DNA of 64,000 bases from Cytospora piceicola (lineage: Eukaryota > Ascomycota > Sordariomycetes > Diaporthales > Cytosporaceae), in the NCBI GenBank assembly GCA_023375675.1, contig JALQBC010000003.1, forward strand, positions 1,178,001-1,242,000, given 5' to 3'. Within the stretch, counting starts at the first letter, position 1; every line of letters begins with the position of its first letter. A program made the position numbers and the translations under genes. This document shows, piece after piece, positions 35,509-37,071 of the stretch. Below the pieces are notes generated by a model that saw only the letters and a program-made list of their open reading frames with translations, was not told the origin of the DNA and ran no database searches.

Positions 35509-37071
35509 CTAGTTCATCTGGCGGATGAGAGCGTTGATGTTCTCCTCGCGGTTGCCAAGGTCACCACCCTCGATGAAGTGCTTGAACTTGCGAGTGTGGA
35601 AGCCACCGTTGGGGTTGGACAGCTTGAAGGGCCACAGGAAGTTTGAGGCCTGCTTGAAGTTGGGGCCGACGGTGTAGATCTCGTGGATGAGATCCTCCAT
35701 GCAGACGATGCCGTACTTGCCGAGGTTCTCCTCAATGATGGAGTTGTCGGTCAGGGCGATACGCTGCTTGTTGACCTTTCCGTATCCGCGCTTGTAGACA
35801 AGCTCCTTGACGGACTTCAAGTTGGGGTAACCGTAGGCGACCCAAGGCTCAATAACCTTGATCATCTCGGTGACGGCCTTGGTGACACGGACGAAGACAC
35901 CGTTGTTGATCTGCAGCAGACGGAGCAGCTGGAGGATCTTACGGGGCTTGGGGGCGATCTTGTTGATACTATTGGACTGTCAGTGACTGCTGCACTTGAG
36001 GAACTGGTGACAAAACTTACCCCTTGATACGGATGATGAAGATCAGGTTGGCCTCAGAGGGGACGTAGAACTCGCCGCTCTGCTTGGCAACACGGCCCAG
36101 GCGGATCTTCTCACGCTCCTGGTCACGGTACTCCTGAACGTACTTCTCAGCACGCTTGAAGATGACGCCGCGCTTCTCCTTGTTGGCCTATTTTGAAGAG
36201 TTAGCATCGATAACCCGAAAGCATGGTTTGATTATCAAAGTTCTCCTCCATCGATCAGACCCGAAAGACAGTAATTCGCGACATCATCGACCGTAGTCTA
36301 GCCAGGCGTGGATACAGTTGTTCATCACTTCGCTCCCCAATTTGATTCTGGTGTAGAGACTAACCTTCTTCTTGTTCTCAATGTCGGCCGACCTCTCAGC
36401 ACGAGCCTTCTCCTGAGACTTGCGCTTCTTCAGGAGGGTCTCGGGGACCAGAATCTGGTCGTTGGTGGGGACGGTACTGCATAGTCATCAGATTAGTACG
36501 TAGTCCGGCATACTTCAGTGAAGCATGAAGGAGAGCGCCGGTGGAGAACTGTTGCTAAGTGCGACATTCTCTGCATGGCTAACTCGTAAAGCTGATTTTA
36601 ATCGGTGAGTCCAAAGAGTCCAGCAGATGCGAGAGCAAACTGCGAAGACAGCTACTGGTGCTACCTCATCCGACAACACCTCGACTAGGTCGAGAAATTA
36701 TGCTCGCAGTGTAGCAGCCCATCAAGCAGAAGATGAACTTCTTGCGACGGGTGCAATTCTGCGGCAATGGATTTAAGAGAGAAGGCCTGGGTAGACCTTC
36801 AGCTCCAACACCCCGCGCGACATCTCTCGATCTGCAGGCTGTGTTTCAAGCCTGGAGGAAGGAGGGAGAAGAGCAGGAAAGATCGAGCTGGCTGCGCTTA
36901 CTCATGCCTTCCACTCTGGGGAGAGGGGCAGGTAGAGCAAAGCTTTCCCAGCAGGAGAGGACCACGACAATCTGCAATAGATGCTCCGAAAACCAGGCGT
37001 TGAGGGGATAAAGACTGGCATCTCAATTGATGCCAGCATCAACGGAGGGCTCAAACATACGTGGCAGGCAT
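35509..37071 (-). CDS. RPL7: 60S ribosomal protein L7 (uL30), 249 aa
   Basis: Structural protein of the large cytosolic ribosomal subunit. Exons on the minus strand: 37071-37061 (11 bases), 36476-36365, 36187-36021, 35968-35509. Spliced start MPATTVPTNDQILVPETLL, then the basic KKRKSQEKARAERS region, and the ribosomal L30 core (FIIRIKGINKIAPKPRKIL; VYKRGYGKVNKQRIALTDN; CMEDLIHEIYTVG). Length fits the family. The first intron is long (584 bases, 36477-37060) and splits codon 4, a common design in fungal ribosomal protein genes. The second intron (36188-36364) hosts a C/D-box snoRNA. The gene is divergent to RPS14, with 362 bases between start codons. Confidence 0.97.
36250..36334 (-). ncRNA. 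Intronic C/D-box snoRNA, likely LSU rRNA 2'-O-methylation guide (snR39b-like)
   Basis: Within RPL7 intron 2. On the minus strand a perfect C box GTGATGA (36328-36322) and a D box CTGA (36258-36255) lie 74 bases apart end to end, with an internal C'-like ATGATGT near 36281-36287. The ten bases directly upstream of the D box (complement of ACCCGAAAGA, 36259-36268) pair with the conserved LSU rRNA sequence GGGACCCGAAAGAUGGUG, recalled from memory. The fifth base from the D box pairs with the G of ACCCG, which I take to be yeast 25S G805, the site of snR39b (human U39/SNORD55). A short CGA/TCG terminal stem is possible. Yeast RPL7A/RPL7B introns host snR39 and snR59, which act two bases away (A807). 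Mature ends are estimates. Confidence 0.82.

Follow-up and report, generated by a model that had tools for sequence, protein, structure and literature searches.

In yeast, snR39b guides methylation of the large-subunit (LSU) ribosomal RNA (rRNA) at Gm805, snR39 and snR59 guide Am807, and snR60 guides Am817 (PMC2806949; PMC8307265), and snR39 and snR59 are located in the second introns of RPL7A and RPL7B (PMC5295604). In Neurospora crassa, Liu et al. (2009; PMC2780460) listed CD47, an intronic box C/D small nucleolar RNA (snoRNA) of 75 nucleotides (nt) assigned to 26S-Gm785, with a 16/0 match, the guide at box D, and snR39b homologs. Here, we analyzed a 64,000-nt stretch of Cytospora piceicola DNA (hereafter, the window; contig JALQBC010000003.1 of a 43.6 Mb assembly) in which a candidate box C/D snoRNA occupies the second intron of RPL7. 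An earlier reading of this DNA made from its letters (the sequence-only reading) had proposed the snoRNA and had named snR39 and snR59 as A807 guides residing in RPL7 and snR39b as the G805 guide; these yeast facts were borne out by the three yeast papers above.

An RPL7 intron position is widespread among fungi, including a Sordariomycete, Sporothrix schenckii. The position of an RPL7 intron was reported to be kept in 82% of fungi species and to be shared by eight intron-poor fungi, including S. schenckii (Pezizomycotina), and the RPL7B introns in figure 7 of the same report encode box C/D snoRNAs, with the A807 address (snR59) named for yeast (PMC8476143). In Fusarium graminearum, deletion of DBR1 led to a drop of a putative intronic SnR39 and accumulation of its lariat, the host gene being unnamed in the available portion of that report (PMC9606315). 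Both the kind of snoRNA and its address were therefore already known for a filamentous ascomycete, and RPL7 as a host was known for fungi at large. The novelty of kind that the earlier reading had implied was not supported, since CD47 and the conserved snoRNA-bearing RPL7 intron were in print, and C. piceicola adds another member.

A box C/D snoRNA candidate in the second intron of RPL7

The RPL7 (uL30) gene (35509–37071, on the minus strand, as are all features within it) consisted of four exons of 11, 112, 167, and 460 nt and encoded 249 amino acids in an intact spliced frame. The exon lengths of yeast RPL7 used for comparison are 11 and 94 nt. A structure-database comparison of the protein gave as top PDB matches the L7 chains of 7r81 and 7olc, presumably the ribosomes of Neurospora and Chaetomium; together with the intact spliced frame, these matches upheld the proposed RPL7 host. 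Intron 2, which hosts the snoRNA (36188–36364; 177 nt, GT...AG, phase 0), interrupts the protein at ...ENKKK|ANKEKR.

The snoRNA core, from the C box through the D box, begins 36 nt inside this intron and spans 74 nt inclusive (36255–36328). The C box GTGATGA (36322–36328) and the D box CTGA (36255–36258), perfect matches to the consensus RUGAUGA and CUGA, were both present at the spacing that the sequence-only reading had given, and its internal C'-like box was found as GATGATG at 36288–36282; no clear D' partner for GATGATG was seen. A branch-point-like GCTAAC follows in the intron, its A lying 53 nt past the D box.

The guide comprises 16 bases (36259–36274) that pair with the LSU rRNA stretch ACCCGAAAGAUGGUGA. 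The duplex consisted of 16 uninterrupted pairs, 13 Watson–Crick and three G–U, with a gap of 0 to the D box and a length inside the 10–21 bp expected of box C/D guides, so that the ten-base complementarity to ACCCGAAAGA originally noticed beside the D box was present and extended to 16 bp. The fifth guide base from the D box is a C that lies opposite the G of ACCCG in the LSU, which we take to be the equivalent of yeast G805. The LSU letters were 582 nt of a basidiomycete LSU printed in PMC12287172 rather than those of C. piceicola itself. In this basidiomycete LSU, A residues lie at +2 and +12 from the G of ACCCG, so that the G805 assignment fits the yeast spacings 805/807/817 and 785/797 in N. 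crassa. The predicted D+5 address of the candidate is therefore the equivalent of yeast G805, as had been proposed.

To see how far chance could account for this arrangement, we scored the CTGA sites of the window against the 582-nt LSU, 536 over the two strands once those in the initial 110 bases of each strand had been skipped. The snoRNA D box ranked first with a score of 29, compared with 23 for the runner-up, and it alone among the eight best sites had an upstream C box. Within 40–100 bases upstream of CTGA, TGATGA was found at 17/536 sites and RTGATGA at 6/536. The pattern TGATGA-N45..75-TTTCGGGNCTGA had a single occurrence in the 43.6 Mb assembly, at the snoRNA, and its reversed control had none; by a hand estimate for a uniform genome, ~0.16 chance occurrences of the C-guide-D pattern would be expected anywhere. 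That the boxes arose by chance in an ordinary intron agrees with the lack of an above-threshold Rfam match in the window and with the finding that no fold was better than shuffles (both detailed below). Nevertheless, the single pattern in 43.6 Mb, the first rank among 536 sites, and the location in an intron known to house such snoRNAs make this explanation barely credible.

The boxes, the guide pairing, the host intron, and the uniqueness of the pattern within the assembly were observed directly. We are confident that the element is an intron-encoded box C/D snoRNA, likely an ortholog of N. crassa CD47, that guides methylation of the G805 equivalent. Methylation of a single conserved LSU rRNA base is very probably the task of this guide RNA. 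We infer orthology with CD47, expression, a debranching route, snoRNA ribonucleoprotein (snoRNP) assembly, and methylation, which could be connected as follows. The snoRNA would be co-transcribed with RPL7, freed from debranched intron 2, and then trimmed to about 75–80 nt; the predicted snoRNP would bind ACCCGAAAGAUGGUGA of the LSU rRNA through the D-box guide, and fibrillarin would 2'-O-methylate the G equivalent to yeast G805. Box C/D snoRNAs are stable RNAs that associate with fibrillarin, Nop56, Nop58, and Snu13.

Database searches and competing layouts

None of the 4227 Rfam models matched at the gathering threshold anywhere in the window. At relaxed expect values (E), two Rfam matches were obtained in 2001 bases, and six C/D families matched weakly within the intron. 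One weak match was full-length over the C box, guide, and D box, with two extra bases ahead of the D box; it reached 19.3 bits, compared with a gathering score of 55, and an E of 1.4 for the intron alone.

In the same intron search, a lower E of 0.11 (1.2 for the 2001 bases) was obtained with plant sR28 (RF01136), aligned at 36291–36233 with 14.1 bits compared with a cut-off of 39. This alignment is what favors a shorter snoRNA with the sR28 layout, beginning at GATGATG, for which the CTGA of the 74-nt core would act as the D' box. Such a layout, however, has no CTGA to serve as the terminal D box and leaves the perfect C box at 36328 idle, and CD47 is 75 nt long with its guide at D; we therefore consider the shorter form highly improbable and retain the 74-nt core.

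The sequence-only reading had named the snR39b covariance model as a check. This check was negative: RF01299 (SNORD2/snR39B) was absent from the six matches in the intron at E up to 10. A search of the C. piceicola genome with RF00134 gave no match at E up to 10; sub-threshold matches were obtained in 8/14 control genomes. The RF00134 null for this genome says little, because 55/5439 candidates were scored and the present site was missed as well.

Several observations weigh against the snoRNA reading, including the Rfam null in the window and the weakness of the relaxed matches. The terminal stem, CGA/UCG as read by eye from the flanks, is short (~3 bp). Folding showed that neither the snoRNA stretch (z 1.13) nor the whole of intron 2 (z 0.99) was more stable than shuffles. 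Folding no better than shuffles is usual for C/D snoRNAs, but it does not constitute support. Searches of the 43.6 Mb assembly with a pair of exact patterns and a DNA probe detected no intact ribosomal DNA (rDNA), which is why the basidiomycete LSU was used. Finally, CD47 was compared by its table entry alone, its host gene being unstated in the available text, and its expression entry, N, R, conflicts with an asterisk that marks it as annotated but experimentally undetected (PMC2780460).

Two LSU-like stretches were noted in the course of the rDNA searches. The sole match of a 160-nt fungal LSU probe was a 75% identical stretch of contig C70 (L002 1501–1621), a locus without an Rfam match at the gathering score, which is perhaps a decayed rDNA relic. 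The eukaryotic LSU pattern GACCCGAAAGATGGTGAACTATG was matched exactly close to an end of a viral contig record (L003 3356–3334, minus strand), which is perhaps a chimeric join.

Other features of the locus and origin of the guides

A second CTTTCGGGT was found at 36221–36213 (minus strand), also within intron 2. Together with its 3' side, it aligned with the guide/D-box end of the snoRNA with 17 of 19 columns matching and two one-base gaps. An equal or better self-alignment occurred in 9/1000 dinucleotide shuffles, a frequency that is only suggestive, as the alignment was chosen post hoc; the second CTTTCGGGT may have arisen as a partial tandem duplicate of that guide/D-box end. Around it, a hairpin with a 9-bp stem and a 14-nt loop was predicted just upstream of the branch point (36207–36238, minus strand). 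The hairpin was not significant (z -0.96; 31/200 shuffles equally good), and a longer, 51-nt stretch folded differently (z 0.46). This hairpin may be part of the rpl7 motif, a ~30-nt element in L7 introns described from 22 examples in 17 fungal species (PMC5640933).

Intron 1 of RPL7 (37060–36477, minus strand; 584 nt) is preceded by the 11-nt exon 1. It may contain autoregulatory or 'rpl7' elements like those of other fungi; in the yeast RPL7 genes, another intron precedes the snoRNA-bearing intron (PMC5295604), and yeast RPL7B is reported to be autoregulated via its first intron (PMC12311795). A pospiviroid-motif match in intron 1 was rejected as chance (18.5 bits, compared with 40 required). 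RPL7 (37071) and an RPS14-like gene (37434) are divergent, with ~360 bp separating their start codons; this neighbor, judged from its reading, looks like RPS14 (uS11). On the other side, a reading frame at 34776–35189 (plus strand) ends with ...SSCGCGTSFDIKI and, judging by this motif, presumably encodes an ISCA-type iron-sulfur assembly protein. No RPL7 relatives were obtained with exon 3 against the viral contig collection or with exon 4 against the genome contig collection.

The sequence-only reading suggested a common origin of the G805 and A807 guides within RPL7, which published data do not support as worded. In a table of C/D snoRNAs of the last eukaryotic common ancestor (LECA), both guides are entered for plant, human, and yeast, and the human and yeast entries for G805 and A807 belong to separate Rfam clans, CL00072 and CL00054; the yeast site numbers in this table, 803 and 805, are two below those of other papers (PMC3511168). 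In chicken, the G805 and A807 guides have separate hosts, the introns of EIF4A2 and EEF1B2. Moreover, Plasmodium and Entamoeba each have a listed G805 guide, and Entamoeba has a listed A807 guide as well. Because of the LECA listing, the chicken hosts, and the protist guides, it is unlikely that both guides were born inside a fungal RPL7. Likeness between the two guides is expected from their pairing with the same rRNA, and the G805 guide of Entamoeba has the same look as the present guide.

A guide for A807 residing in RPL7 may have switched its site through a two-base shift of the D box. A fuller version of this proposal, in which the A807-to-G805 switch took place within one intron by a two-base D-box move and pair-preserving guide changes, the RPL7-encoded A807 methylation of filamentous ascomycetes gave way to one at G805, and the second CTTTCGGGT beside the branch point is a copy of the guide/D-box end left from the rearrangement, appears doubtful to us. 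Two exact patterns for an A807 guide elsewhere in the C. piceicola genome gave no match, although exact patterns miss variants. One further place with an A807 pattern had no D' box, and the reversed control gave four; it was taken as chance. For three Candida-clade species, it is reported that no snR39/snR59 orthologs were identified, which indicates that loss or replacement also occurs.

It is plausible, if not quite probable, that, independently of snR39 and snR59, filamentous ascomycetes acquired or kept an snR39b (G805) gene in their RPL7 intron, the shared host being a coincidence or the reuse of a good host. In keeping with such independence, the candidate shares its D+5 address and its end sequence CTTTCGGGT-CTGA with the G805 guides of Plasmodium and Entamoeba, Liu et al. 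listed CD47 with snR39b homologs (PMC2780460), and snoRNA mobility is, by its title, the theme of PMC3511168. On the other hand, RF01299 remained unmatched in the intron at E up to 10, and Plasmodium and chicken carry the G805 guide in the 5' half, in contrast to the 3' half here and in Entamoeba.

Comparison with known snoRNAs

The candidate is of value for annotation, as it falls below the gathering score of all 4227 Rfam models. It is also a predicted G805 guide in the same host gene as the yeast A807 guides; if relatives were to carry both registers in one intron, this would provide a clean case of target change by D-box sliding. The literature used for comparison also included PMC2653536, PMC2656528, PMC3542256, PMC12309372, and PMC5033589.

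Among G805 guides, yeast snR39b, represented by RF01299, addresses the same D+5 base as the candidate, but the model did not match it. The chicken member of RF01299, in an EIF4A2 intron, has its guide in the 5' half, whereas that of the candidate is in the 3' half. Me-Eh-LSU-G926 of Entamoeba histolytica shares with the candidate the C box GTGATGA, the guide end CTTTCGGGT directly at the 3' CTGA, and the address; it is 59 nt long as printed and, by eye, shows no likeness beyond the boxes and guide. Yeast snR39 and snR59 resemble the candidate in their RPL7 host, their location in the second intron, and their overlapping rRNA target, but differ in their address, A807, which is two bases downstream of G805. 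N. crassa CD47, by its table entry, resembles the candidate in being intronic, in its length (75 nt compared with 74 nt), in its D-box guide, in its 16 pairs without mismatch, and in addressing the same base.
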